DNA from: Chloroflexota bacterium
Lineage (GTDB): Bacteria; Chloroflexota; Anaerolineae; Anaerolineales; UBA4823
Reading direction: 5' to 3'
NCBI GenBank assembly: GCA_029557965.1
Contig: JAKQIM010000056.1
Span: 1-64,000, forward strand
DNA length: 64,000 nucleotides
The notes beneath the pieces were generated by a model. The model did no database searches and was not told the origin of the DNA. It saw only the letters and a program-made list of their open reading frames with translations. The position numbers were made by a program, and so were the translations under genes. This document shows, in pieces, positions 4,065 through 37,441 of the stretch (positions are counted from its first letter, which is position 1; every line of letters starts with the position of its first letter).

Positions 4065-5470
4065 GTAAAACCGATATGCGTAAGACACCTCCCCTGCTTA
4101 AAGCAGGCCTCTTGATCCTGTTCCTGGCCGGCGCGGCTTTCTTAGCCTATTTCGCCTATGCCAAATCCCATGACTTTTGGGTATCCTACGATGTCACCGA
4201 CCTGCCCGGGTTGGCCATCGAATACAAACCCACACCCACAGCCAACCTTGAAGGCACCCCTGCCCCCACCGCTGAGCCCACCAAAGCCATCAGCAGCGGG
4301 CCCGAAGCCCTGCCCTGGGATGGCGCCAGCCGGGTGACCGTGCTGCTCATGGGCCTTGATTATCGTGATTGGGAATCGGGCGATGGCCCACCCCGCACCG
4401 ATACGATGATCCTGCTGACCATTGAACCGCTGACGATGAACGCCGGTATGTTGAACATCCCGCGCGACCTGTGGGTCAATATCCCAGATTTCGATTACGG
4501 CCGCATCAACACCGCCTACATGCTGGGAGAAGCTTACCAGGTGCCCGGCGGCGGCCCTGCCCTGGCAATGGCTACCGTTGAAGCCCTGCTGGGTGTGCCG
4601 ATCGACTACTATGCTCAGATCGATTTTTCGGCCTTTGAAGATTTTGTAGACGAACTGGGTGGCATCTCAGTTGACGTTCCGGCTGAGATGAGCGTTGACC
4701 CCATTGGCAACAATAACACGGTCATCTTGCAGCCCGGCCGCCAGGTGATGGACGGCGCAGTGGCCCTGGCTTATGCCCGCGCCCGCCATACCGAAGGCGG
4801 CGATTTCGACCGCGCTGCCCGCACCCGCCAGGTCATCCTGGCCATCCGCGAGCGCATCTTGGGCCGCGGCCTGCCCGATGTGCTCGGGCGCGCCCCTGCC
4901 ATCTACGAAAAGCTGGCAGCCGGCATCCATACGAATATGTCGTTCGAAGATGCCATCCGCCTGGGCCTGCTGGCCCTTGAAGTGCCCGAGGACGAGATCC
5001 GCCAGGGTACCATTGCCCCACCCAACCAGGTGCTGCTGGCCAAGTCTCCCGATGGCACGCAAGATATCCTCAAACCCATCCCCGACCAGATCCGCCTGCT
5101 GCGCGATTACATTTTCGCATCTTCCGATATGGCCAGTCCCTCCAGCCAGGGCCTGGATCTGCAGACCCTGATGCAGACTGAAGCCGCCCGCATCCAGGTG
5201 CTGAACGGGACTTACGTGGAAGGCCTGGCAGCCAGCACCCAATCGTACCTTCAATCCCAGGGCGCCAACGTAACCAGCACGGGCACCGGCGAATATACCA
5301 CCTATACCCGCATCGTCGATTACACCGGCAACCCTTATGCCATGCAGTACCTGGTGGAACTGATGGGCATCACGCCGTACAATATCCGCGTCCAGTATGA
5401 CCCAAGCAGCGATGTGGACGTGGCAGTGGTGCTGGGTGAAGATTGGGCGGCCAACAACCCCATGCCGTAG
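4061..5470 (+). CDS. LytR-CpsA-Psr (LCP) family protein with LytR_C domain, copy 2
   Basis: A 469-residue paralogue of the preceding gene and translationally coupled to it through an ATGA overlap at 4061-4064. It has one N-terminal TM helix (about 12-30), a Pro/Thr-rich spacer (PTPTANLEGTPAPTAEPT), the LCP core (PPRTDTMILL, NIPRDLWVNIP, YARARHTEGGDFDRAARTRQ) and a C-terminal LytR_C domain (RIQVLNGTYVEGLA onwards). Both copies share the entry block PWDGASRVTVLLMGLDYRDW and end in almost the same residues (DWAANNPMP here, DWAAENPMP in copy 1), so they arose by tandem duplication. The likely role is attaching a cell-surface glycan; the two copies may differ in polymer or acceptor. Confidence 0.93.
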   Translation: MSKTDMRKTPPLLKAGLLILFLAGAAFLAYFAYAKSHDFWVSYDVTDLPGLAIEYKPTPTANLEGTPAPTAEPTKAISSGPEALPWDGASRVTVLLMGLDYRDWESGDGPPRTDTMILLTIEPLTMNAGMLNIPRDLWVNIPDFDYGRINTAYMLGEAYQVPGGGPALAMATVEALLGVPIDYYAQIDFSAFEDFVDELGGISVDVPAEMSVDPIGNNNTVILQPGRQVMDGAVALAYARARHTEGGDFDRAARTRQVILAIRERILGRGLPDVLGRAPAIYEKLAAGIHTNMSFEDAIRLGLLALEVPEDEIRQGTIAPPNQVLLAKSPDGTQDILKPIPDQIRLLRDYIFASSDMASPSSQGLDLQTLMQTEAARIQVLNGTYVEGLAASTQSYLQSQGANVTSTGTGEYTTYTRIVDYTGNPYAMQYLVELMGITPYNIRVQYDPSSDVDVAVVLGEDWAANNPMP

Positions 5471-5515
5471 CGGCGATCTCCGTCGCTGCTGCTGTAATCA
5501 TCACGCAACGCGAAT

Positions 5516-7774
5516 GTGGAAGTACTAACCGGCTCTGTCGAGCACATCACTTACTATAACCCCGAAAACGGTTACAGTGTGGTGCGCCTGCAGCCAGACC
5601 AGCGCCGCCTGCCCAACCTGGGGCGCGATGGCCTGGCAACCATCACCGGCAACCTGCCCGAGCTGGCCCCTGGCGAATACCTGCGCCTGCAAGGGAACTG
5701 GACCAACCACCCCAAGCACGGCATGCAGTTCCAGGTTGAGTTGTGCGAACAAACCCTGCCCGCCACCACGGCGGGCATTCGCCGTTATTTGGGCTCTGGG
5801 TTGATCCGCGGCATTGGCCCGCGCCTGGCTGAACGCATTGTAGCCCATTTTGGGGCCAAAACGCTGGAAGCGATTGAAGAACACCCCGAGTTGCTGCGCG
5901 AAGTGCCAGATATTGGCCCCAAGCGCTCGCTTCTGATCGCCCAGGCCTGGGAAGAGCAAAAACAGGTTAAAGAGATCATGCTCTTCTTACACAGCCACGG
6001 CATCAGCACCAACCTGGCGGTCAAGATCTATAAACATTACGGCGACCAGGCCCTGCAAGTGGTGCGCAGCGATCCTTACCGTCTGGCACGCGATATCTAC
6101 GGCATTGGCTTTAAAACAGCCGACCGCATCGCCCAATCCCTGGGCCTGCCCGCAGACCATCCCAGCCGTATCGAGGCCGGGGTGGTCTATGTGCTCAACG
6201 AGATGAGCAACGAGGGGCACGTGTATGCCCCACAGCCAGAGCTTGCTGGAAGGGCAGCCGAGCTGTTGAAAGCCCCTCCCGAGTTGATTCAACCCGCCCT
6301 GCAGCGCCTGGCAGAAGCCGACCGCATTCGCACCGACCAACTGCCCGGCTCACCGCTGCCGCCCATCACTGCTGCCGCCCGCGAAAGCTCGCCCGCTTAC
6401 CCACAGACACCTGCCATTTACCTGACGCCTTTCTTCTTATCAGAGACCAGCCTGGCCCAACGCCTGGCAGCCTTGGCCGCCCACATCCCATCCAGGCTGA
6501 GCGACATGCCGCCTGCCTTTACACCCCTGCATGGGCAGCTTTCTGAAGAACAGCAAGCTGCCATCCGCAGTGCGCTCTCACACCCGGTAAGCGTGCTGAC
6601 CGGCGGGCCTGGCACCGGCAAGACGACAGCCATCCAGGCCCTCATCGCCGCGCTAGAGGCCGCCCACAAACGCTACGCCCTGGCCTCACCCACCGGCCGC
6701 GCCGCCAAGCGGCTGGCCGAGGCCACAGGCCGCCCCGCATCCACCATCCACCGCTTGCTGGGGGTCAGCCCGGCAGAGGGCTTCAAACACAATACAGAGA
6801 ACCCCCTGCCAATTGACCTGCTGGTGGTAGACGAGGCCTCGATGCTCGACCTGATGCTGGCGCATCATCTGCTCAAGGCCATTCCTCCCGGCGCGCACCT
6901 GCTGCTGGTGGGTGACGTGGACCAACTACCCTCGGTGGGTGCAGGCGATGTGCTGCGAGATGTGATAGCCAGCGGTGTGGCCCCGGTTACCCGGCTGAGC
7001 GCCATCTTTCGCCAGGCGGCAGGCTCGCACATCATTACCAACGCCCACCGCATCAACCAGGGCCAATTGCCTGATTTTCCCAGCACGGTCGAAAACCCTG
7101 CCAATGGCCAGATGGCAGATTTCTTCCTCTTCTCGGCTGAGAGCGCCGAGCAAGCAGCAGATTGGGTTGAACAAGTTGTCTGCCAGCGCATCCCGGCCCG
7201 CTTTGGGCTGCACCCGCGCGACCAGGTGCAGGTGCTTTCGCCCATGTACCGTGGGCCGGCCGGTGTCAGCGCGTTGAATGCACGCCTGCAAGCCGTGCTT
7301 AACCCGCCTGCTGCGGCCACAGGCAGCCATCCCACCCCCGAAAAAAGCCTCTTCGGCCAGACTTTCCGCCCTGGTGATAAGGTGATGCAACTTCAGAACA
7401 ATTATGACAAAGAAGTCTTCAATGGAGATATTGGCCTGGTGGCAGGGCTTGACCTGGTGGAACACACCCTGACCATCGATTTTGACAAACGCCTGGTGGT
7501 GTACGATTGGAACGAGGCCGACCAGATCTCACTGGCATATGCCGTTTCGGTACACAAGGCGCAAGGCTCTGAGTTCCCGGCAGTGGTCATCCCCCTGGTG
7601 ACGGCACACTACATGATGCTACAGCGCAACCTGCTCTATACCGCCATCACGCGCGCCAAGAAGCTGTGCGTGCTGGTGGGCAGCCGGAAAGCCATTGCGA
7701 TGGCAGTCAAGAATAATGATATCACCCAGCGTTACACGGCCCTGGACTGGCGGTTGAGGGAACATTATCGCTGA
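5516..7774 (+). CDS. recD2: ATP-dependent RecD2-type DNA helicase
   Basis: A 752-residue SF1B helicase. The N-terminus has the OB-like domain of RecD2 (GSVEHITYYNPENGYSVVRL), followed by helix-hairpin-helix segments (about 95-220: GIGPRLAERI, VPDIGPKRS, YGIGFKTADRI). The motor domain has Walker A GGPGTGKTT (about 362), Walker B VVDEASMLD, motif III GDVDQLPSVGAGDVL, and the C-terminal YAVSVHKAQGSEFPAV and LYTAITRAKKL motifs. RecD2 proteins are 5'-3' helicases in genome maintenance that occur without RecBC. The start is GTG, 45 nt after the LCP gene; no strong ribosome binding site is visible. It is convergent with xylB, with a strong terminator between them. Confidence 0.95.
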   Translation: MEVLTGSVEHITYYNPENGYSVVRLQPDQRRLPNLGRDGLATITGNLPELAPGEYLRLQGNWTNHPKHGMQFQVELCEQTLPATTAGIRRYLGSGLIRGIGPRLAERIVAHFGAKTLEAIEEHPELLREVPDIGPKRSLLIAQAWEEQKQVKEIMLFLHSHGISTNLAVKIYKHYGDQALQVVRSDPYRLARDIYGIGFKTADRIAQSLGLPADHPSRIEAGVVYVLNEMSNEGHVYAPQPELAGRAAELLKAPPELIQPALQRLAEADRIRTDQLPGSPLPPITAAARESSPAYPQTPAIYLTPFFLSETSLAQRLAALAAHIPSRLSDMPPAFTPLHGQLSEEQQAAIRSALSHPVSVLTGGPGTGKTTAIQALIAALEAAHKRYALASPTGRAAKRLAEATGRPASTIHRLLGVSPAEGFKHNTENPLPIDLLVVDEASMLDLMLAHHLLKAIPPGAHLLLVGDVDQLPSVGAGDVLRDVIASGVAPVTRLSAIFRQAAGSHIITNAHRINQGQLPDFPSTVENPANGQMADFFLFSAESAEQAADWVEQVVCQRIPARFGLHPRDQVQVLSPMYRGPAGVSALNARLQAVLNPPAAATGSHPTPEKSLFGQTFRPGDKVMQLQNNYDKEVFNGDIGLVAGLDLVEHTLTIDFDKRLVVYDWNEADQISLAYAVSVHKAQGSEFPAVVIPLVTAHYMMLQRNLLYTAITRAKKLCVLVGSRKAIAMAVKNNDITQRYTALDWRLREHYR

Positions 7775-7785
7775 TACAGCGGTTA

Positions 7786-7832
7786 TTTGGGGATTGTTTT
7801 GGGCGGCATAGCTGCCCAAAACAATCCCCAAA
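7786..7832. terminator. Strong bidirectional terminator between recD2 and xylB
   Basis: A perfect 19-bp inverted repeat: left arm 7786-7804 (TTTGGGGATTGTTTTGGGC), loop 7805-7813, right arm 7814-7832. The T-rich and A-rich arms give U-tracts on both strands, fitting termination of the convergent recD2 and xylose operon transcripts. Confidence 0.85.
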
Positions 7833-7842
7833 CCCCTTAAGG

Positions 7843-9330
7843 CTACATCTTAGCAAAGCTGGGTTTAAGCGCCGGATACAGATCGCGGTACAGCGGGTAC
7901 ACCTGGCGGTAGCGAGCCACACCGGCTTCAGTCGGCTGGGTGCTGCCAGTCACCTGCAGGGTGGCATCGCAGGCCGCAGTTACACTGGGCCATGCGCCCA
8001 CGCCTACCCCAGCCAGCAGGGCAGCCCCAAAAGCAGCCCCCTCGGTAGAATTGACCGTCACCAACTCGCTGTCAAAGATATCTGCCAGGATCTGCCGCCA
8101 GAGGGCTGAACGTGCCCCCCCGCCCGATACCCGCACCTGGTGGATGTGGGCCAGGCCGGCGGCTTTCATCAACTCGAAGGAATCCTTCAACCCAAAGGCC
8201 ACACCTTCCAACACCGATCGGGTGACATGCGCCATGTTGTGGCGCACCGTGAGGCCCACGAAGGCGCCGCGCGCCAGGGGGTCTGGATGGGGCGTGCGCT
8301 CGCCCGTCAGGTAAGGCAAGAAGAAAAGGCCATCACAGCCAGGGTCAACCTGGGCCGCAGGGGCTAACAGATCATCATAAGACCGGCCTGGGGCGAACGT
8401 ATCGCGGTACCAACGCAAAGAGCCCGCCGCCGAAAGCATAACGCCCATCAGGTGCCATTGGTCGGGCACAGCGTGGCAAAAGGCATGCAAGCGCCCTTCG
8501 GGCTCGATGAAGGCCCCACCCGTGGTGGCAAAGACGACCCCACTGGTCCCCAGGGTGAGAGCAACAATGCCTTCACGAATGGCCCCCACACCCACTGCCT
8601 GGGCTGCCTGGTCGCCGCCGCCAGCAACCACAGGAATGCCGGCCCTCAAGCCGGTGGCCTGGGCCGCTACAGGGGTCAGGCGTCCGGTAATTTGCGGGCC
8701 TTCGAAGAGCGGAGGCATCCATGAGCGGGGAATCTCAAGAGCGGCCAAAACCTCATCCGACCAATCCCGATGGCGCAGGTCCATCAACACGGTGCCAGCG
8801 CCATCGGCCTTATCCATAGCAAACTCACCCGTCAGCTTGTAACGAACAAAATCCTTAGGCAGCAGCACGTGTGCCGCCTGTGCATACACTTCGGGCTCAT
8901 TTTCTTTGACCCACAAGATCTTCGGCGCGGTGAAGCCGGTGAGTGCAACGTTGCCGGTGATCTGGATGAAACGCGAGCGCCCCACCCGGCGGTGGATCTC
9001 ATCACATTGAGCCTGGGTGCGCTGGTCATTCCACAAGATGGCGGGGCGCAAAACCACTCCGGCCGCGTCTAAGAGCACCAGGCCGTGCATTTGCCCGGTC
9101 AGACCAATGCCCGCAACCTGGATGGCATTGATCCCGGCTTGTTTTAACACTGCGCCAATGGACTGCTGGGCCCCTACCCACCACAGGTCAGGGTGTTGTT
9201 CACTCCACAAGGGGTGGGGGGTCTCAAAGGGATATTCGCTCGCGGCCACCGCCACCACCGCCCCCGCCGAGTCAATCAGCAGGGCTTTGGTGGCAGTAGT
9301 TGAGACGTCAATACCGATGAAATAGTCCAT
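7843..9330 (-). CDS. xylB: Xylulokinase
   Basis: A 495-residue FGGY-family sugar kinase that phosphorylates D-xylulose to xylulose 5-phosphate. The N-terminus has the phosphate-binding motif GIDVSTTATKALL, then LWSEQHPDLWW, GLTGQMHGLVLLD (substrate-binding MHG) and ILWNDQRTQ, typical of XylB. The C-terminal half has the catalytic region GGGDQAAQAVGVG, the LGTSGVVF segment and the adenine-binding VSGGGARSALWRQILAD. It is the last gene of the minus-strand xyloside operon, 14 nt after xylA. The ribosome binding site is weak (GGTAAG next to the ATG), suggesting coupled translation from xylA. Confidence 0.96.
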   Translation of the reverse strand: MDYFIGIDVSTTATKALLIDSAGAVVAVAASEYPFETPHPLWSEQHPDLWWVGAQQSIGAVLKQAGINAIQVAGIGLTGQMHGLVLLDAAGVVLRPAILWNDQRTQAQCDEIHRRVGRSRFIQITGNVALTGFTAPKILWVKENEPEVYAQAAHVLLPKDFVRYKLTGEFAMDKADGAGTVLMDLRHRDWSDEVLAALEIPRSWMPPLFEGPQITGRLTPVAAQATGLRAGIPVVAGGGDQAAQAVGVGAIREGIVALTLGTSGVVFATTGGAFIEPEGRLHAFCHAVPDQWHLMGVMLSAAGSLRWYRDTFAPGRSYDDLLAPAAQVDPGCDGLFFLPYLTGERTPHPDPLARGAFVGLTVRHNMAHVTRSVLEGVAFGLKDSFELMKAAGLAHIHQVRVSGGGARSALWRQILADIFDSELVTVNSTEGAAFGAALLAGVGVGAWPSVTAACDATLQVTGSTQPTEAGVARYRQVYPLYRDLYPALKPSFAKM

Positions 9331-9344
9331 CTTACCAACCTGTA

Positions 9345-10511
9345 TCAGCGGGCGCCGAGAAGCAGGTCAATGGTCAATTGATCGAGGCGTTCGTAGCGCA
9401 GCCCCCTGGCACTGATGGCCTGGCGATCAAAGGCCTGCTCTTTGAGGGCAGCCGCCTTTTGGGGCGTGTACTTGCCGGCAAAGGGCGCCATGCTGCCATC
9501 ATCCGCGTTGATCTCAGCCAACAAAGCCTGGATTTCGGCATCCTGGTTGAACTGGGCAGCCTTCTCCTTGAGGATCAGGTAGGTGCGCATGCAGCCGCGG
9601 GCGAAATCTTTGACGCCCTCGTAATCTTCAGTGCGGTAGGCATGGGCATCAAAATGGCGCGAACCATCATAATGGACATCTTCCAGGAACTTTACCAGGT
9701 AGAAAGCGGCTTTAATGTCGCGGGAGCCGAACCTCAAGTCCTGGTCATAGCGGCCAGGATACTGGTCGTTCAGATCGATGTGGAAGAGCTTGCCGGATTC
9801 CCAGGCCTGGGCCACACCGTGCATAAAGTTGATCCCAGCCATGTGCTCGTGGGCAACTTCGGGGTTGACACCGACCATTTCGGGATGGGCCAGGGTGCTG
9901 ATAAAGGCCAGCATATGACCGGTGGTGGGGTTATAGATGTCGCCACGCGGCTCATTGGGCTTGGCTTCGAGGGCCAGTTTCAGGTCATAGCCCTGGTCTA
10001 ACACATATTCACAGAGAAAATCCATGGCCTCGCGGTTGCGCCGGATAGCCAGGGCGGCGTTCTTAGATGAATCAGTCTCAGTTCCTTCACGCCCGCCCCA
10101 GAACACGTAGATCTTAGCGCCGAACTCGACACCCAGGTCGATGGAGCGCATGGTCTTCTGCAAAGCATAGCTGCGCACCTTGGGGTCATTCGAAGTAAAG
10201 GCGCCATCTTTGAAGATTGGATCGCCGAACAGGTTGGTGGTGGCCATCGGCACGACCAGTCCCATATCTGCCAGGGCCTTGCGGAAATCCTTCTTGATGG
10301 CGGCTGCTTCAGCCGGCGTGGCATCGATCGGGATCAGATCGTTATCATGGAAATTGACCCCATAAGCGCCTACCTCGCCCAGCAGGTAAACCAGCTCAGC
10401 GGGAGATTTTGGGCTGCGAACGGGGCCGCCGAAGGGGTCACGGCCAGTACTGCCAACGGTCCATAGACCGAAAGTGAACTTGTGTTCAGGTTTGGGGGTA
10501 AAGTCAGACAT
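9345..10511 (-). CDS. xylA: Xylose isomerase, class I (actinobacterial type)
   Basis: A 388-residue TIM-barrel enzyme that interconverts D-xylose and D-xylulose. All active-site blocks of the short class I enzymes are visible: the catalytic His in FHDNDLIP, the metal and substrate ligands in [25 protein letters not shown] and HIDLNDQ with YDQDLRFG, and the final [14 protein letters not shown]. The length fits the 385-395-residue group rather than the longer E. coli type. Three ATGs follow each other at 10517, 10514 and 10511; I prefer the third because AAGGAGA then sits 6 nt away. It lies between the GH3 glycosidase and xylB in the same operon. Confidence 0.96.
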
Positions 10512-10535
10512 CATCATTCTCCTTGATAGTGATAA

Positions 10536-12845
10536 TCAATCCAATTGGACGGGGCAAACAAAGACCCGCTCATTGAGCGGCAGTACGGCAGCGCGGGCAA
10601 TATCAAACTCTCCCGTCAACCGGATGTCGTCGCTCGAGCTGCCGAGCATGACCATGATCCGGCCTGGCTCAAGCACAAGCTGTTGATCAGCATTAATAAA
10701 CGCCAGTTGGTTGACAGGCAAATGGAAGGTGACCTTTTTCGAGTCGCCCGGAGCAAGCCGGATGCGGGCATAACCTTTCAGTTCTTTCATCGGCCTGGGC
10801 AGGCTGCCATATTCATCCCGGACGTAAAGCTGAACGACCTCATCGCCAGCAAGCTTACCAGTATTCTTAACCTGGAGTGAAATATCCACCGTTCCGCCCG
10901 GGCGCGCCTGGGGGGCGCTGATCGACAGGTGGCTGTATTCAAAACTGGTGTAGCTGAGCCCATGCCCAAAGGGAAAGAGCGGGGTCGTCTTCTCAGAGAC
11001 GTAATCGCCATACCAGTGTGATTTCATGCCAGAGGGCTTGTGGCTGTAGTAAATGGGCACCTGACCCACATGGCGCGGGAAGCTGAGCGGCAGCTTGCCA
11101 GCAGGGTTGTTTTCGCCAAAGAGAGTCTTGGCGATCGCCGTGCCGCCCTCTTCGCCTGGTAGCCAGGCTTCAAGGATAGCATTGGCACTTTGGGCCAATT
11201 CAGGAATGGCGTAGGGACGGCCATTGACCAGCACCACCACCACCGGCTTGCCTGTTGCCAGGACGGCCTGGGCCAATTGGTTCTGTACGCCCGGCAGGCG
11301 CAGGTCGACGCTGTCGCGCGTCTCGCCAGTGGTGCAGCCAGGGGTCAAGCCAGAGCGATCTCCCAAGAAGAGCACCACCGCATCAGACAACTTGGCAATC
11401 TGAACCGCGTCATTCACTTGGGCCGTATCAGAATCCAGGTATTGACAGCCCTGTGCAAACAAGACCTTGGTATTTTTTGAAACAAGCTTGCGGATGCCTG
11501 CCAGGGGGGTTACAATCTGGATCGATCCTTTTCCAGAACCCTTGAAGGCTGAGGCTGAATCGGCCTGAGCCTGGTGCTGCAGCAGCTCTACCGTGGCTGC
11601 ATAAGAATAATCGCCCAACAAGCTGCGGCCGTCATCCGCCAGGGGGCCAATGACAGCCAGAGTGTCGATATTCTTTCGCAGGGGCAGTAAACCATCATTC
11701 TTGAGCAAAACCATGCTTTGGCAAGCCACTTCACATGCCAGGTCTCGCTGTTGCGGGGTCTCAAAGACATCCAACACACGGCCATCATCAACATAAGGGT
11801 TCTCAAACAAACCCAGCTCAAACTTCTTTTGAAGATGACGGCGCACGGCTGTGTCAATCGTTTCAATATCCAAGCTGCCATCGGCAAGCGCGTCTTTGAG
11901 TGCGTCTCCGTAGCACACCACGGTCGGCAGTTCCACATCGATTCCGGCCTTCAGGGCCAGGCTTCCGGCGGTAGCTATGTTTTCAGCCACGCGGTGGAAG
12001 TTGTGCAGCATGATGATGGCATCGTAATCTGAGACCACCAGGCCGGTAAAACCAAGCTGGTTGCGCAGTAGATCCGTCAAAATTGGGCGCGAGGCGGCAA
12101 CCACCTCGCCATCCAGCTCAGGATAAGAGTTCATGATCGTGGCCAGGCCGGCATCGCGGATGGCAGCCTGGAAAGGAGGCAGCAGCACCTCATACAACTC
12201 GCGCTGGCCCAGGTGAATGGGACCGCAGTTCAAACCACCCTGTGAAAGGCTGTGCCCGATGAAATGCTTTCCGGTGGCCATCACCCCTTGGGCCAGGTCA
12301 TCGCCCTGCATACCCCGGATGTAGGCAGCGCCAAAATGGCTGACCAGGGTGGAGTCTTCACCAAAGGTCTCTTCGGTGCGTCCCCAGCGCGGGTCGCGCG
12401 CCACATCCAGCACAGGCGCGAGGGTCTGGCGTGCGCCAACCGCCAGCAACTGTTGGCGAATGGCCTGGGCCATCTTCTCTGCCAGTTCAGGTTGGAAAGT
12501 GCCGGCCAAACCGATCATCTGGGGGAAAGCCGTGCCGCCTAAAAACATCGCGCCTGAGCAGCTTTCCTCATGCAAAATGGCCGGAATGCCTAAGCGGGTT
12601 TGTTCAACCAGGAATTTTTGGATCTGGTTACCAACTTTGGCAACCATCACCGGGCCCCATTCAGATCCCCCCCCCACGCGGGTGACCTGCCCAATGCCAT
12701 GACCCAACCTGGCCTGCATTTTCGCCAGATCCAGCTCGCCGGCAGTTTGCAGCTCATAGATCCAGTATGAGCCGATCTGGGCCAGCTTTTCATCCAAACT
12801 CATTTGTGAGAGCAGCGCGTTCAGGCGCTTATCGATGGATTTCAT
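10536..12845 (-). CDS. Glycoside hydrolase family 3, probable beta-xylosidase/beta-glucosidase
   Basis: A 769-residue GH3 enzyme. The N-terminal (alpha/beta)8 domain shows DPRWGRTEETFGED, KHFIGHSLSQGG and LVVSDYDAI, whose first Asp is the expected nucleophile. The second domain holds VLFLGDRSGL and AWLPGEEGGTAIAKTLFG, and a C-terminal fibronectin III-like domain runs from about 660 (ARPGGTVDISLQVKNTGKLAGDEVVQLYVRD). There is no signal peptide, so it probably acts in the cytoplasm on imported oligosaccharides. Position between ABC permeases and xylose isomerase/xylulokinase suggests beta-xylosidase rather than glucosidase; that is inference from context. The start is 5 nt after the permease stop, with a weak ribosome binding site. 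Confidence 0.93.
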   Translation of the reverse strand: MKSIDKRLNALLSQMSLDEKLAQIGSYWIYELQTAGELDLAKMQARLGHGIGQVTRVGGGSEWGPVMVAKVGNQIQKFLVEQTRLGIPAILHEESCSGAMFLGGTAFPQMIGLAGTFQPELAEKMAQAIRQQLLAVGARQTLAPVLDVARDPRWGRTEETFGEDSTLVSHFGAAYIRGMQGDDLAQGVMATGKHFIGHSLSQGGLNCGPIHLGQRELYEVLLPPFQAAIRDAGLATIMNSYPELDGEVVAASRPILTDLLRNQLGFTGLVVSDYDAIIMLHNFHRVAENIATAGSLALKAGIDVELPTVVCYGDALKDALADGSLDIETIDTAVRRHLQKKFELGLFENPYVDDGRVLDVFETPQQRDLACEVACQSMVLLKNDGLLPLRKNIDTLAVIGPLADDGRSLLGDYSYAATVELLQHQAQADSASAFKGSGKGSIQIVTPLAGIRKLVSKNTKVLFAQGCQYLDSDTAQVNDAVQIAKLSDAVVLFLGDRSGLTPGCTTGETRDSVDLRLPGVQNQLAQAVLATGKPVVVVLVNGRPYAIPELAQSANAILEAWLPGEEGGTAIAKTLFGENNPAGKLPLSFPRHVGQVPIYYSHKPSGMKSHWYGDYVSEKTTPLFPFGHGLSYTSFEYSHLSISAPQARPGGTVDISLQVKNTGKLAGDEVVQLYVRDEYGSLPRPMKELKGYARIRLAPGDSKKVTFHLPVNQLAFINADQQLVLEPGRIMVMLGSSSDDIRLTGEFDIARAAVLPLNERVFVCPVQLD

Positions 12846-31000: not shown

Positions 31001-32101
31001 TCAATACCTTAGCACGGCGCCGATCTGGTCAAAGCCTGCAACCTGGGGCTCGTATTGGAGCACCTCAACATCACCCCCTGATTCCAGCACCTTGCGCACC
31101 GCCAGCTCAACCGCATCCACCACGCGCTCAAACCCTGCCCCACAGTACGGACAAGTTGGCGCTGAGTTAGCGGTCATAAACCCACAGCCCTGGCAGCGGT
31201 AGCCGGGGGCGCGGTAACCATCCTGGAAGACCAGCATCTGCACCCGGTTATCGTGCACTGCCGCCAGAGTCTGATCCAGGCCCACCACACCACCCCGGCC
31301 TTTGGCAGAAGTGGTCACCACCTTCTCAACAACCTCGGTCTCCTCACGCATTTCTGCTTGCTGGCCAACCTGCAAAGCGCGCGCCAGCACTTCATCCTTA
31401 TTGGCCATCATACTCATGGGGAAGGTGCCCACGACCAGGCTCTGCCAATTTTTGGGCAGCAGCCCGCGCAGCAGGGCCACGTTATCATCAGTACCACCAA
31501 TCAAAAGCCGGCGCACATTATGCTCAGCAAAGAAATGGACGGCCATTTCAGCCACATCCTTCATATTGCGCTCCACCAGCCCATCGGCGTTGGCATGTTG
31601 TTCTGAGCTCCCGCCGCGGCGGCCCGGCACAGCCGATGCACCGCCGCTTTTGGTATGGCGCACCGCTTCGCCCAGGTGGCCTTCTTGCTCGATCAATTCG
31701 CCGAGATGGAACAAGAAGACGCGCGCCCCTTGCTTATCGACCAGCACTACCCCATACCCACCGTAAAAATCCCACACATTTGCCAGCGGCTTGACATGCG
31801 GCTGCGTGTCGATGCGCACCCGGCTGCGCACCGGCACAGCCAGCGGGTAAGCCTTGAAGAAACCATCGGCCGCACAAGAGAAAATGGCCACGCTGCGGCC
31901 AGACCACTCAAACTCACGCTGGACATATTGCTCTACAGCCTCAACATCCTCTGGCAGATCAATGTCCTTCAACATACTGCGCAGGTGAAGCCTGTACACA
32001 TCTGCATTCCCCTGAGAAGGGTCGGTGTTCAAGTAGACGCTCAAGACGCGAGTCTTCGACTTGTACTCGAGCAGCTCGTGCAAGTTCGTGTCGGTCAACA
32101 T
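31001..32101 (-). CDS. Bacterial eRF1/Vms1-like protein with zinc ribbon
   Basis: 366 residues. The N-terminus (RVLSVYLNTDPSQGNADVYRLHLRSML) and the central fold match bacterial proteins related to eukaryotic release factor eRF1 and the peptidyl-tRNA hydrolase Vms1 (baeRF families), some of which rescue stalled ribosomes. Where eRF1 has the catalytic GGQ loop, this protein reads GRRGGSSEQHANADGLVERN (about 160-179), so the GG is followed by SSEQ. A zinc ribbon, YRCQGCG and CPYCG, sits near residue 310-325, followed by a helical tail. AAGGAGA lies 5 nt before the ATG. It follows the DnaJ/CbpA gene by 13 nt, so a protein quality-control operon is likely. Confidence 0.8.
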   Translation of the reverse strand: MLTDTNLHELLEYKSKTRVLSVYLNTDPSQGNADVYRLHLRSMLKDIDLPEDVEAVEQYVQREFEWSGRSVAIFSCAADGFFKAYPLAVPVRSRVRIDTQPHVKPLANVWDFYGGYGVVLVDKQGARVFLFHLGELIEQEGHLGEAVRHTKSGGASAVPGRRGGSSEQHANADGLVERNMKDVAEMAVHFFAEHNVRRLLIGGTDDNVALLRGLLPKNWQSLVVGTFPMSMMANKDEVLARALQVGQQAEMREETEVVEKVVTTSAKGRGGVVGLDQTLAAVHDNRVQMLVFQDGYRAPGYRCQGCGFMTANSAPTCPYCGAGFERVVDAVELAVRKVLESGGDVEVLQYEPQVAGFDQIGAVLRY

Positions 32102-32114
32102 CCTATTCTCCTTT

Positions 32115-33047
32115 CTATGATTGGGAACGAGCTAATTCCTCAAAAAGTTCCCGCTGATGCGCAGTCAGGTTGCGCGGCAGTTTTACCTTCACGCGCACCA
32201 ACAGGTCACCATGGGTGGCTGGGTCTTTCAGATTGGGCATGCCGCGCCCAGCCAGGCGAATGGATTGCCCCGGCTGGGTTCCAGCCGGGATCTTCAATAC
32301 CACATTGCCGGTCATTGTCGGAACAGTCACTTCTCCCCCCAAGACTGCCGCATAAAGATTAACATTGATCTCCGTGGTCAAATCACTGCCCTTGCGTGCA
32401 AAGCGAGGATCATCTGCCACCTGAATGACCAGGTACAGATCATTCCGCTGGCCGGTGCCAGGGGTGATAATGGCATCTGCCACCCGCACCTTGGTACCGC
32501 TGCGCGCCCCGGGCGGAATTTTGACCTCAATCCGCCGTCCATCCACGTCCAGCATACGGGCTGTACCGTGGAAGGCTTCTGCCAGGCTGATGGCAACCTC
32601 GTGGCGCACGGGCATAGCCCCGGGCCGGGGCCGGCGCATGCCACTGCCGCGTTCGAATGCATCTGCGCCCGCCATCCCGCCAAAGATACGCCGGAAGAAT
32701 TCTGAGAAACCACCCCCCAAGATATCATCCAGGTTACCCATGTCCACGCCCACGTTCCCACCTGGCGTAGTGTTGGACCATTCTTCCCAGTTAAAACCGC
32801 CTGGCGCCCCACGCTGCTGCCAACGGTTGTATGATTCGCCCAGTTGGTCATAGCGCGAACGCTTTTCCGGATCGCTCAATACCTGGTAAGCCTCATTGAT
32901 CTCTTTAAACTTCTCTTCTGCTTTGGTATTGCCAGGGTTGCGGTCTGGATGGTATTCCAATGCCAGCTTACGATAAGCGCGCTTGATCTCATCATCATTG
33001 GCCTTGCGTTCTACACCAAGGGTCTTATAATAATCTTTGTATTCCAT
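32115..33047 (-). CDS. cbpA: DnaJ-family co-chaperone, CbpA-like
   Basis: A 310-residue J-domain protein. The J domain (1-70) starts [12 protein letters not shown] and has the HPD tripeptide in [13 protein letters not shown], required to stimulate DnaK. A Gly/Phe-rich region follows (GGAPGGFNW to IFGGMAG, about 80-125), then the DnaJ C-terminal substrate-binding domains ([52 protein letters not shown]). The Cys-rich zinc domain of true DnaJ is absent, so it is CbpA-like. I start at 33047 rather than 33056 because [11 protein letters not shown] is the canonical start and a TTGACT-18-TACAAT promoter ends 7 nt before it. It is probably co-transcribed with the eRF1-like gene. Confidence 0.95.
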
Positions 33048-33054
33048 ATCAATC

Positions 33055-33084
33055 ATTGTATGCTCTTTATAGGCCTAAAGTCAA
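33055..33084 (-). promoter_or_regulatory. Leaderless promoter of the cbpA operon
   Basis: On the minus strand: TTGACT (33084-33079), an 18-bp spacer, TACAAT (33060-33055), then 7 nt to the ATG at 33047. No ribosome binding site is present. Confidence 0.7.
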
Positions 33085-33181: not shown

Positions 33182-34840
33182 ATGAACACACCGAAAGAGC
33201 GCATCCTTCTCGTTGAATATGACCCCGAAGTAAGTGACCTGATCAGCCGGCAAACCCTGCAACCGATGGGGTACCGGGTTGAGGTTGTCAGCGGCGCCAC
33301 GCAAGCGATCCAAGAAGCCGTCCGCTTTGCACCCGACGTGATCATTGCCAACCTGAGCCTGCCGGGCTTAAGCGGCAAGGACCTGTTGGTGGCCCTATCT
33401 TCGCAGGGGCTAGAAGTGCCGGTCATTGTGCTGGCACCCAAAGGGATGGAAGGTGATGTGATCCAGGCCTTCCGCCTTGGTGCAGCAGATTTCTTGGGCT
33501 GGCCTGTGCGAGAAGCCGAAGTGGTGAGCGCCGTTGAACGCATTCTCAAGCAAGTGCGCGCCCGGCGTGAACGAGAAATGCTGGCGCGGCAGTTGAACCA
33601 GACCAACCAGGAATTGCAGCGGCGCGTGCGCGAACTGACCACCATCTTTGCGATTGGCAAAGCGGTGATCTCGGCCACTGACCAGCAGGCCCTGTTCGAC
33701 AAGATTGTCGAAGGCGCCACATTCATCACAGAAGCCGATGCCGGCTGGCTGCTGGTGCGCGATGAACGCGGCAAGTCCTTCATCTTGCGCGCCTGCCGCA
33801 ACGTGCCCAACGATATGTTTGCCAAGTTAAACCAGGTCTTCGACGATGGTCTGAGTTCCTTGGTAGCGCTCTCTGGCGAGGCGCTGTCGATCCATGGCGA
33901 CCCGCTTAAGCGCTTCAAGGTTGTTCGTATTGGCCAATCGGCCCTGGTCGTGCCGGTTAAGGTAAAGAAAGAAGTGGTGGGGCTTTTGGTGGTAACCCGC
34001 AAAGAGGCTCATCCCTTTAGCAACAGCCAGCAGGCCCTATTAGAGGCGGTTGCTGATTATGCCTCGATTTCTCTGGTGAACGCCCGCCTGTTCAAAGCCC
34101 TGGAAGAACGTGTTAACACCCTTCAACAATCTGCCGATAACGCCCAGGTTGGCGAACGCATCAAGGACGAAGTGCTGCAGCAGATCCGGGAGGAGTTAAG
34201 CGCCCCCCTGCTGGTGATCAAAGGCAATGCTGACATGCTGCTCGGCAAAGAGATGGGCAAGCTGAACACTGAGCAAACCAATGCCGTGAATGTGATCCAA
34301 GAAAAGCTCAAAACCATCCTCGACATCGTGGCCGCGTTAACAGCCATGGATGCATCTGACTCGAGCAAAGAACGCTCGACGATCAATCTCACCGAGCTGA
34401 CCCGCCAGGCTATCAACCGTTTCCAACCCATTGCCCGCCAGAATTCGGCTGCCATCACAGCAGAGCTGCCATCAAAACCGATCATGGCCCTGGCCGACCC
34501 GGGGCAAATTTCGAAGGTCTTCGATGGTTTGCTCTCGAATGCGGTCAAATTCAGCATGCCGGGTGCCAGGATCAAGATAAACCTGGAACGCAGCGCCGAT
34601 AACATGGCACACGTATCTGTGCAAGACACAGGGGTTGGCATGGATCCGCAGCACCTGCCCCATATCTTTGATGAGGGGTACCGCATCAAGGGCGCATCTG
34701 GTGGACGCTATGGAGGCGTTGGCATCAGCCTATCATTGGTAAAAGAGATCGTCACCTCACACCGCGGAAAGGTATGGGCTGAAAGCCAGCCAGACCAGGG
34801 TTCAACTTTTCATTTTTCCCTTCCATCAGCCGGCGCCTAG
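33182..34840 (+). CDS. Receiver-GAF-histidine kinase-like protein lacking both phosphoacceptors
   Basis: A 552-residue cytoplasmic protein: a receiver-like domain (1-125), a helix (125-150), a GAF domain (about 150-305), a HisKA-like helical pair (about 325-400) and a HATPase_c domain (about 430-550; LLSNAVKFS, DTGVGMD, YGGVGISLSLVKEI). The receiver has Asn57 where the phosphorylated Asp should be (IIANLSLPG), Ala85 for the conserved Thr and Trp107 for the conserved Lys. In the HisKA helix the sequence QIREELSAPL puts Glu337 where the H of SHELRTPL belongs. The ATP-binding domain looks intact. It is therefore probably a non-phosphorylated partner or allosteric subunit. It is in an operon with the kinase 15 nt downstream. 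Confidence 0.88.
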   Translation: MNTPKERILLVEYDPEVSDLISRQTLQPMGYRVEVVSGATQAIQEAVRFAPDVIIANLSLPGLSGKDLLVALSSQGLEVPVIVLAPKGMEGDVIQAFRLGAADFLGWPVREAEVVSAVERILKQVRARREREMLARQLNQTNQELQRRVRELTTIFAIGKAVISATDQQALFDKIVEGATFITEADAGWLLVRDERGKSFILRACRNVPNDMFAKLNQVFDDGLSSLVALSGEALSIHGDPLKRFKVVRIGQSALVVPVKVKKEVVGLLVVTRKEAHPFSNSQQALLEAVADYASISLVNARLFKALEERVNTLQQSADNAQVGERIKDEVLQQIREELSAPLLVIKGNADMLLGKEMGKLNTEQTNAVNVIQEKLKTILDIVAALTAMDASDSSKERSTINLTELTRQAINRFQPIARQNSAAITAELPSKPIMALADPGQISKVFDGLLSNAVKFSMPGARIKINLERSADNMAHVSVQDTGVGMDPQHLPHIFDEGYRIKGASGGRYGGVGISLSLVKEIVTSHRGKVWAESQPDQGSTFHFSLPSAGA

Positions 34841-34855
34841 CACATCTTGAACACA

Positions 34856-36790
34856 ATGAGCAATCCATCCCCCACGACCATCCTCCTGGCCTTAGCAGAT
34901 ACTGACCTTGGCACGCTGTTAGAAAAGTCTACACTGAGGCCTGCCGGTTTAGAGGTCACCCTGGTGGCTGAACGCCAGGCCGCCGAGCTGCTTGTCCGCG
35001 CCAGCTTGCCAGATGTGATCCTGGTGGGTGATAAGCTCAAAGACTGTGATGGGTTTGAGTTTGCCGAGAATTTATTAAAACTCCATCCCCAACTGCCGAT
35101 CATCTTACTGTCCAGCCAGGCTTCTGAAGAAATGGCGACCAAAGCCTTACGCGCTGGCCTGACTGATTTTCTTGTGGCGCCGGTCCGGCCTCACGAGATC
35201 TTGACCACGATTGAGCGTGCCTTCCAGCGTCGAAAACACCTGGAGGAATGGATCCAAATAGAAGCCCGGCGCAGCACTAAAGCACAACGCCGGCAGATCG
35301 AGAATCTGGAGGCCTTGCAGCGCGTGGGGCGCAGCGTTACCGCATCGCTGGACCTGGACAGCGTGTTAACCACGGTGGTAGATGCGGCGGTTGACCTGAC
35401 CGGCGCCGAGGAAGGCAGCCTGCTGTTATTGGACGAGGCAACCGGTGAATTGTATATGCGCGCCGGGCGCAACTTCCAAGATGAATTTGTGCGCACCTTC
35501 CGCCTGCCAATCCGTGACAGCCTGGCCGGGCAAGTGCTGCGCACGGGGCAGCCGCTCACATTTTTTGACGAGAAAAACCCTCAAAAGATCAAAACTGCTT
35601 ACCTCGTCCACACCCTGATCTATGTACCCCTGCAAGTGCATAAACGTGTTATCGGTGTGCTGGGCGTAGATAACCGCCAAGGGGGGCATCCTTTTGCTGA
35701 GGATCATCTTGCTATCGTCAATGCCCTGGCCGATTATGCCGCGGTTGCCATCGAGAATGCCCGCATCTACACGCACACCGAATCAGAACGCAACCAATTC
35801 GAAACTATCCTGACGGGCGTGGAAGATGGGGTGCTTGTGGTGGCCCAAGATGGGCGCCTGGTGTTGGTTAACCAAACGGTGCGATCGGCCTTCGATCTAG
35901 GCGAGGGGAACTTGGTCGGCAAATCGGTGCGCCAGATTTTCCACCACCCCGATATCCTGGAGATTTTTGACGAAAACCGTGTTCACCCCAGCCACAGCGA
36001 GGTCAACCTGGATGATGGGCGGGTCTTCAACGCCCAATGCACGCCCATCCCCAACATTGGGCTGGCAATCACCATGCAAGACATCACCCACCTGAAAGAG
36101 CTGGATCGGATCAAGTCTGATTTTGTCAGCACGGTTTCACACGATCTGCGCTCTCCATTGACCGCCATCTTGGGCTATGTGGAACTGATCGAGCGCGCCG
36201 GGCCGGTCACCGATCAACAGCGCGAGTTCATTCACCGGGTACAATTCAGCGTTAATAACATTACCAGCCTGATCAACGACCTGTTGGACTTGGGGCGGAT
36301 TGAAGCCGGCTTTGATACCCGGAAGGAAATTGTTTCTCTCTCTTCAGTGATCCAATATGCCGTTGAAGGGATGCGCACCCGCAACACAGAAAAGGATCAA
36401 GAAGTGATCCTGGATTTGCCGCCCAACCTGCCCACTGTCTTGGGTAACCCCGTCCGCCTGCGCCAGGTGATCGGAAACCTGATCAGCAACGCGACAAAAT
36501 TTACCCCCAACCACGGCAAAATCTACTTAAAAGTGCACGCCGAAGGGGAGCAGGTCATCATCCAGGTGGTCGATAATGGGCCGGGCATTCCCCCTGCCGA
36601 CCAACCTTATATCTTCGACCGCTTCTACCGGGGCAGCAATGTGCCTTATGATGCGCCCGGGTCTGGATTGGGACTGGCAATTGTCAAATCTATTGTCGAG
36701 AACCACCAGGGTCGCATCTGGCTCAATTCAACCCTCGGGCAGGGAAGCACCTTCACGGTGGTCTTACCCATTGCAGATCAAAGCATGTAA
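34856..36790 (+). CDS. Hybrid sensor histidine kinase: degenerate receiver-GAF-PAS-HisKA-HATPase
   Basis: 644 residues without membrane segments. Order: receiver-like domain (1-125), GAF (about 150-305), PAS (about 313-410), HisKA with His429 in STVSHDLRSPL, and HATPase_c (N box ISNATKFTP, DNGPGIP, GSGLGLAIVKSI). The kinase core looks active. The receiver is altered: the expected Asp position is Gly58 with Asp59 next to it (ILVGDKLKDCDGF), and the conserved Lys is Ala108. I use the ATG at 34856; an in-frame TTG at 34847 would add three residues. It follows the kinase-like gene by 15 nt, and the two proteins may form a hetero-oligomer. A terminator lies just downstream. Confidence 0.9.
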   Translation: MSNPSPTTILLALADTDLGTLLEKSTLRPAGLEVTLVAERQAAELLVRASLPDVILVGDKLKDCDGFEFAENLLKLHPQLPIILLSSQASEEMATKALRAGLTDFLVAPVRPHEILTTIERAFQRRKHLEEWIQIEARRSTKAQRRQIENLEALQRVGRSVTASLDLDSVLTTVVDAAVDLTGAEEGSLLLLDEATGELYMRAGRNFQDEFVRTFRLPIRDSLAGQVLRTGQPLTFFDEKNPQKIKTAYLVHTLIYVPLQVHKRVIGVLGVDNRQGGHPFAEDHLAIVNALADYAAVAIENARIYTHTESERNQFETILTGVEDGVLVVAQDGRLVLVNQTVRSAFDLGEGNLVGKSVRQIFHHPDILEIFDENRVHPSHSEVNLDDGRVFNAQCTPIPNIGLAITMQDITHLKELDRIKSDFVSTVSHDLRSPLTAILGYVELIERAGPVTDQQREFIHRVQFSVNNITSLINDLLDLGRIEAGFDTRKEIVSLSSVIQYAVEGMRTRNTEKDQEVILDLPPNLPTVLGNPVRLRQVIGNLISNATKFTPNHGKIYLKVHAEGEQVIIQVVDNGPGIPPADQPYIFDRFYRGSNVPYDAPGSGLGLAIVKSIVENHQGRIWLNSTLGQGSTFTVVLPIADQSM

Positions 36791-36798
36791 AAAGCAGA

Positions 36799-36819
36799 GC
36801 CTGTCTCTCAGGCGTTTTT
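36799..36819. terminator. Bidirectional intrinsic terminator
   Basis: GCCTG (36799-36803), a 5-nt loop, CAGGC (36809-36813), then GTTTTT on the plus strand. On the minus strand the same stem is followed by TCTGCTTTTT. It separates the convergent kinase operon and the PH-like gene. Confidence 0.7.
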
Positions 36820-37441
36820 ATCGCTTGGGTTTCTGATACATCCCATACCCAACCGAAGGAGAACGCGTGCCGCGAGACATGCGGTAATTATCGTTAAAAG
36901 AATCCAACTCGGTGGATAAAGCCATCCAATCTTTTACGACCAGCACAAAGCCGGTGCCCTTGGGGGCCAGCATCGGGCGCGGCAAGAGCATGCGCAGCAA
37001 TCCAAGGCTGACCGGGTATCCATTCAAATCCAGCAACACAGCGCTCCTTCCATAGAAAGGGTCCAACAAATCGCGCACGAATGCACCGACCTCGCGCGGG
37101 GGAAAGATATCTTGCAGTTCAGCACTGTGCACACTGCGGATACGCCGGTAAGAGATCTTGATTTGAAGCAGCGGGGTCACCAGGCGCACATGATCGACAA
37201 AAGGCTGGACATAACTGCGCCCTCGCACAACAAAGGTCAGGAAAGCAAAAGCCAGGATGACAGCCGCCCCTACAAAAAGCAAGGTGTCATACAGGGGATC
37301 AATCGACGGCACCAGTATGGCCAATCCCACCCACAGGCCGGCCAGCAGCAGTCCAATCCCCAGCATGCTTCGCCACAACCGATCCCATGAGTTTCGCAAC
37401 AATAAGAGCTGGTGACGCTGTCCGGGTTTCTGTTTCGCCAT
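36818..37441 (-). CDS. Hypothetical membrane protein with PH-like C-terminal domain
   Basis: 207 residues. After a basic N-terminus come two TM helices forming a hairpin (about 25-45 and 50-72; MLGIGLLLAGLWVGLAILV and TLLFVGAAVILAFAFLTFVV), then a cytoplasmic domain (about 75-185) that resembles bacterial PH domains (YVQPFVDHVRLVTPLLQIKISYRRIRSVHSAEL). No enzymatic motif. GGAG lies 6 nt before the ATG. It follows the kinase at 37476-39317 by 34 nt on the same strand, so it may be co-transcribed with the asparaginase-nth-kinase genes. Function unknown. Confidence 0.7.
   Translation of the reverse strand: MAKQKPGQRHQLLLLRNSWDRLWRSMLGIGLLLAGLWVGLAILVPSIDPLYDTLLFVGAAVILAFAFLTFVVRGRSYVQPFVDHVRLVTPLLQIKISYRRIRSVHSAELQDIFPPREVGAFVRDLLDPFYGRSAVLLDLNGYPVSLGLLRMLLPRPMLAPKGTGFVLVVKDWMALSTELDSFNDNYRMSRGTRSPSVGYGMYQKPKR

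Follow-up and report, generated by a model that had tools for sequence, protein, structure and literature searches.

Why does a bacterium keep a kinase-like protein that has lost its phosphoacceptors right next to a second histidine kinase? The question arises from a window of 64,000 nucleotides of a Chloroflexota genome, which encodes protein A (33182..34840, + strand), a protein of 552 amino acids composed of a pseudo-receiver, a GAF domain, a pseudo-DHp hairpin and an ATPase-like domain. A previous sequence-only reading had assigned four unusual residues to this protein, N57, A85, W107 and E337, and all of them are real and in register within the open reading frame. The receiver (amino acids 8-118, 33203..33535, +; Pfam PF00072, 57 bits) carries E12, Y13, N57 (codon 33350-33352), A85 and W107. 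With the overlooked Y13, the metal-binding pair has lost its second acid, which brings the receiver catalytic residues lost in the window's protein A to four out of five (DD2, D, T and K). The domain matches the receivers of YycF and PrrA structurally (rmsd 1.1). With a receiver fold and key phosphotransfer residues gone, it is a pseudo-receiver (PsR), and through N57 it also falls within the PsR subset of aspartate-less receivers (ALRs). Judging from these residues, it is evidently unable to take phosphate in the usual way. A long signalling helix (amino acids 111-164, 33512..33673, +; AF2 model m29a6e9043f90, mean pLDDT 88.9) links the receiver to the GAF domain, a conserved putative sensor (amino acids 169-298, 33686..34075, +; Pfam PF01590, 45 bits).

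The pseudo-DHp hairpin (amino acids 328-386, 34163..34339, +) is recognizable mainly by its structural register, as HisKA scores 24.4 bits against the Pfam PF00512 cut-off of 26.9 while the receiver, GAF and HATPase domains all score above their cut-offs. In the structural alignment of the AF2 model with these transmitters, residue 328 pairs with residue 251 of HK853 and residue 541 of DivL. Provided that the helix is ungapped, E337 (codon 34190-34192), which replaces the phospho-His, would fall on H260 of HK853 and Y550 of DivL. A His or Asp at a shifted position is ruled out, since Asp is absent between positions 53 and 66 and the DHp-like helices contain no His; the protein has histidines only at positions 238, 277, 477, 491, 494, 527 and 544. 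The HATPase_c domain (amino acids 439-549, 34496..34828, +) keeps N453, K456, D482, G484, G486, G512 and G514. The claim that the N, G1 and G2 boxes are all kept thus holds for the N-box (N453 and K456) and for G1 (DTGVGM), but not for G2, which reads GVGISL with Ser516 in place of Gly. Homology to HisKA and HATPase without a phospho-His (E337, in a hairpin free of His) makes protein A a putative pseudo-histidine kinase. The initial view that it cannot function as a normal two-component protein is upheld, since both the phosphotransfer residues of the receiver and the His-box are gone.

The gene downstream encodes protein B (34856..36790, +; 644 amino acids), a kinase with a degenerate receiver followed by GAF, PAS, HisKA and HATPase domains. 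Its ATG at 34856 lies 15 nucleotides past the stop codon of A, with an alternative TTG start at 34847. The DHp domain (36113..36310, +; Pfam PF00512, 72.7 bits) is intact and contains FVSTVSHDLRSPL, with the His codon at 36140-36142. The description of B as an active kinase 15 nucleotides downstream was therefore correct for the spacing and plausible for the catalytic core, where SHDLRSPL and the N, G1 and G2 boxes are intact, but it missed that the receiver (34925..35212, +) lacks the phospho-Asp, replaced by Gly, and the Lys, with A-P in place of K-P. Because its own receiver is degenerate, B is not a normal receiver-kinase. Neither protein has a live receiver, and only B has a live transmitter. 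When the partner kinases were aligned, all kept the His and the N, G1 and G2 boxes except for one Asp-to-Asn change in G1. One row of this tally is wrong: for L081 it lists a third kinase, encoded between A and the actual B (9508-11373). The L081 locus (6001-11373) is early-branching and hosts three kinases in a row, namely A with an intact His-box, a kinase at 7602-9371, and B.

To understand whether the window is an isolated case, we relied on the orthologues of protein A. They occur in 25 of the 38 genomes of the window's family and in 13 of the 14 genomes from other families of the same order that are listed in a class-wide sample. Most of the protein A family belongs to a single Anaerolineales-like order of Chloroflexota, and a few members come from other parts of the class. 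Scanning named genomes returned 80 protein A loci, all from Chloroflexota and mostly from Anaerolineae, including four cultured species. Literature searches returned nothing on this Anaerolineae family. The closest receiver-GAF relatives outside the class are hybrids of approximately 800 amino acids. They have an AHELNNPL box, and in their receiver the acidic pair, Asp, Thr and Lys are all canonical, so that the receiver residues were most likely lost during the emergence of the protein A family.

We tallied residues in 78 aligned orthologues. The Thr position of the receiver is Ala, Ser or Gly in all 78, the Lys is kept in only four (41 have Trp there), and only three have an acidic residue at the second position of the metal-binding pair. 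The sequence-only reading had proposed to verify whether N57 and E337 are conserved, and they are not. The phospho-Asp column holds N in 47 orthologues and D in 26 and its state changes 17 times along the tree, so that N57 itself carries little weight and the family as a whole is better described as PsR than as ALR. Position 337 holds 15 different residues, with Tyr in two orthologues. We therefore rejected N57 and E337 as conserved, meaningful substitutions. Nor has the ATP-binding domain been maintained: most orthologues have it in degenerate form or lack it. Only seven of the 78 retain a SHELRTPL-type His-box together with an intact ATPase domain; 35 have an ATPase-like domain without a His-box, often with a broken N or G1 box; and in 36 the whole ATPase domain is gone while the hairpin is retained. 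These last proteins end at 381-399 amino acids, just after the hairpin, with one exception of 340 amino acids. In a model of one of them, the same helical hairpin is predicted to persist (281-355 and 363-385). At L149 (genome G048; 5157-6416 after reverse complement), a protein of 419 amino acids has a canonical receiver, a GAF domain, an AHELNQPL His-box and no ATPase domain, and would seem to be a receiver/DHp protein that can be phosphorylated but lacks a kinase. Since an intact His-box is missing in 71 of the 78 orthologues, the substitutions in the window's protein A are due neither to chance nor to sequencing error.

Given the seven orthologues with intact His-box and ATPase domain, the family most likely descends from a kinase. 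On the receiver-GAF tree, Dollo counting returned nine losses of the His-box (bootstrap 7-10) and six losses of the ATPase domain (bootstrap 5-8), numbers that depend on the alignment and on loss being irreversible. Four orthologues (L089, L093, L095 and L097) with a lone His337 in an abnormal His-box context and a broken G1 were counted as lacking the His-box; the number of losses would otherwise be higher. Such repeated, independent losses are what a functionless pseudogene in progress would display. This explanation is nevertheless very improbable, because identity in the receiver and GAF domain remains.59-.65 across the order, omega in these domains is mostly 0.01-0.3 among the pairs with usable dS (dS is saturated for many pairs), the open reading frame is intact in nearly all orthologues, and the truncations converge on the same narrow range of lengths.

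We then looked at the association between A and B. B follows A on the same strand in 69 of the 72 loci where 1.5 kb or more of sequence is available downstream, usually with a gap of -8 to approximately 135 nucleotides. Of the 38 genomes of the family, 24 have both genes (G007 being counted by adjacency), 12 have neither, one has only A and one has only B (Fisher test P-value 6e-8, uncorrected for relatedness). In the receiver-GAF trees A and B are each monophyletic, with L081 and L134 as the earliest branches in both. The possibility that the two are recent tandem duplicates was rejected, because they form separate clades and the transmitter tree, a quick tree with some long branches, groups B with other kinases rather than with A. 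The surroundings of the pair are also recurrent. Genes for a release factor-like protein of baeRF family 10 and a DnaJ/CbpA-like protein (31001-33056, - strand) diverge from the A/B pair in the window, and similar genes lie near 32 and 30 of the 80 orthologous loci, respectively, which indicates an old neighbourhood. Downstream of the pair, a protein of 207 amino acids with no Pfam match (36818-37441, - strand) has relatives near 16 of the 80 loci.

Two exceptions count against a joint action of A and B. Genome G001 has A without B, and in G005 A is cleanly missing between the same DnaJ gene and B. The latter locus (L163:2964-6139), with baeRF10, DnaJ and kinase B, is a natural knock-out of A. 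These two genomes, together with the generic nature of the sensory domains of A, would fit a free-standing GAF/pseudo-receiver protein that has another target and shares an operon with B for historical reasons. Given adjacency in nearly all loci and the reciprocal domain loss described below, we consider such independence unlikely.

Decay of the two proteins is complementary: A conserves the receiver and the GAF domain but not the kinase, while B conserves the kinase but not the receiver. Among the members without His, the mean pairwise identity in A is.59 in the receiver,.59 in the GAF domain,.22 in the DHp and.31 in the ATPase (CA) domain. The corresponding values in the partner B proteins are.30,.63,.75 and.52. 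The direction of constraint between A and B is identical in every genome pair compared, although these pairs are not phylogenetically independent. The same trend is detectable between the window and its nearest relative L056, where dN is.13 in the receiver and.76 in the DHp of A, compared with.55 and.05 in those of B. Whole domains were lost from B too: in the tree set its GAF domain disappeared on approximately four occasions, and in each case the neighbouring A is ATPase-less but retains its own GAF domain. G007, in the family set, has a further short B, but the adjoining A has an ATPase-like domain. In two early-branching loci (L134:7268-9187 and L135:1658-3577), B has a canonical receiver (DD, D, T and K) beside an ATPase-less A, which implies that there the loss of the kinase in A preceded any decay of the receiver in B.

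Adjacency, co-occurrence and complementary conservation bear out the proposed tie between A and the downstream kinase, and a functional link between the two is well supported. The explanation that we favor, and that is probably correct, is that A is a non-catalytic pseudo-receiver/GAF sensor or regulator that acts with the adjacent kinase B. The GAF domain of A would bind a ligand or otherwise sense a state; sensing could alternatively occur through the pseudo-receiver, as in ShkA with c-di-GMP (PMC7010744). Carried along the signalling helices of the receiver-GAF part and the hairpin that A has kept, the signal would reach B within a complex of the two proteins, and A may there raise or lower the autokinase or phosphatase activity of B allosterically. 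As the sequence-only reading had suggested, A and B may form a physical hetero-oligomer, with candidate contacts between the receiver of A and the DHp of B, between the two hairpins, or between the two GAF domains. Since the hairpin is the least conserved part of A, a specific DHp-DHp heterodimer is disfavored compared with a receiver or GAF contact.

A more specific form of the favored explanation is that the pseudo-receiver of A is a non-phosphorylatable mimic of a response regulator, which docks on the DHp of B to block or tune it and replaces the decayed receiver of B, with the GAF domain as a gate. The receiver of A is indeed the maintained one of the pair, B has lost its receiver while preserving the DHp that would offer the docking surface, and pseudo-receivers can regulate a kinase, as in ShkA (PMC7010744). 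However, receiver and GAF domain of A are equally conserved, so that constraint on the receiver alone is not diagnostic, and receiver docking as such is rather doubtful. Another possibility, which we advance tentatively, is that A and B together represent a signalling kinase that was split in two and degenerated reciprocally. A would give the sole maintained receiver, a non-phosphorylatable one, and a sensor, and B the sole maintained kinase core, with the pseudo-receiver of A replacing that of B in trans and the catalytic half of A repeatedly discarded within one order.

Finally, the ATP-binding boxes of the window's protein A are mostly intact, so that A may still bind some nucleotide or phosphorylate B in trans. 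N453, D482, G484 and G486, the persistence of the hairpin even in ATPase-less orthologues and the FasBC precedent (PMC12675982) would all be consistent with a heterodimer of A and B formed through the DHp, in which the ATPase of A, where present, phosphorylates the His of B. This arrangement is quite unlikely, because the pair was kept through approximately six losses of the ATPase domain, the domain is broken in several other members (for example L069, L089 and L095), and the hairpin sequence is barely conserved.

How does the pair of A and B compare with known systems? The His is missing in 0.9% of HisKA domains and the Asp in 2.0% of receivers (PMC12632262), and single cases of lost His or Asp are therefore not rare. 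In the literature searched we found no description of an adjacent kinase pair whose two members decay reciprocally, repeatedly and throughout a family. Across genomes, this locus presents one orthologous protein in natural grades (active, His-less and ATPase-less) beside a nearly invariant kinase, with cultured members in Longilinea, Bellilinea, Levilinea and Ornatilinea, which makes the role of a dead kinase for a live one directly testable. As in the pseudo- or aspartate-less receivers of ShkA, CmrT and others, the receiver of A has the fold but lacks residues of the acidic pair or the D, T or K (PMC12632262, PMC4395418, PMC7010744). Unlike in those proteins, it is N-terminal to a GAF domain in a dead kinase, often has Trp at the Lys position, and has a second kinase as partner, with a degenerate receiver of its own.

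Among the pseudokinases, the closest parallel is DivL, a pseudo-histidine kinase of Caulobacter that regulates CckA and responds to phosphorylated DivK bound at its own DHp (PMC4211667). DivL (4q20) is the second-best structural match to the window's transmitter (Z 22.9, 202 residues aligned, rmsd 4.7), shares the HisKA-HATPase fold without the phospho-His, and acts in the control of another kinase. The Tyr that DivL has at this site is not found in the window's protein A, which has Glu337, and A differs also in its receiver-GAF sensory domains. In group A Streptococcus, one of FasB and FasC is a proposed pseudokinase, and two-hybrid data support their heterodimer (PMC12675982). A and B similarly are two kinase-like genes in one operon, one of them predicted to be catalytically impaired. 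However, FasC keeps its phospho-His (H246) and has a dispensable kinase domain, while A, in the window and in 71 of the 78 orthologues, lacks an intact His-box, and has no phosphosite; FasB and FasC are moreover membrane proteins encoded with the regulator FasA. In Corynebacterium glutamicum, ChrS without its ATPase still modulates signalling via the paralogous HrrS (PMC9491836). That case derives from laboratory evolution, whereas the loss in A is natural, old and repeated. Overall, DivL, FasBC and ChrS show that kinases that are wholly or partly dead are able to direct live ones (PMC4211667, PMC12675982, PMC9491836).
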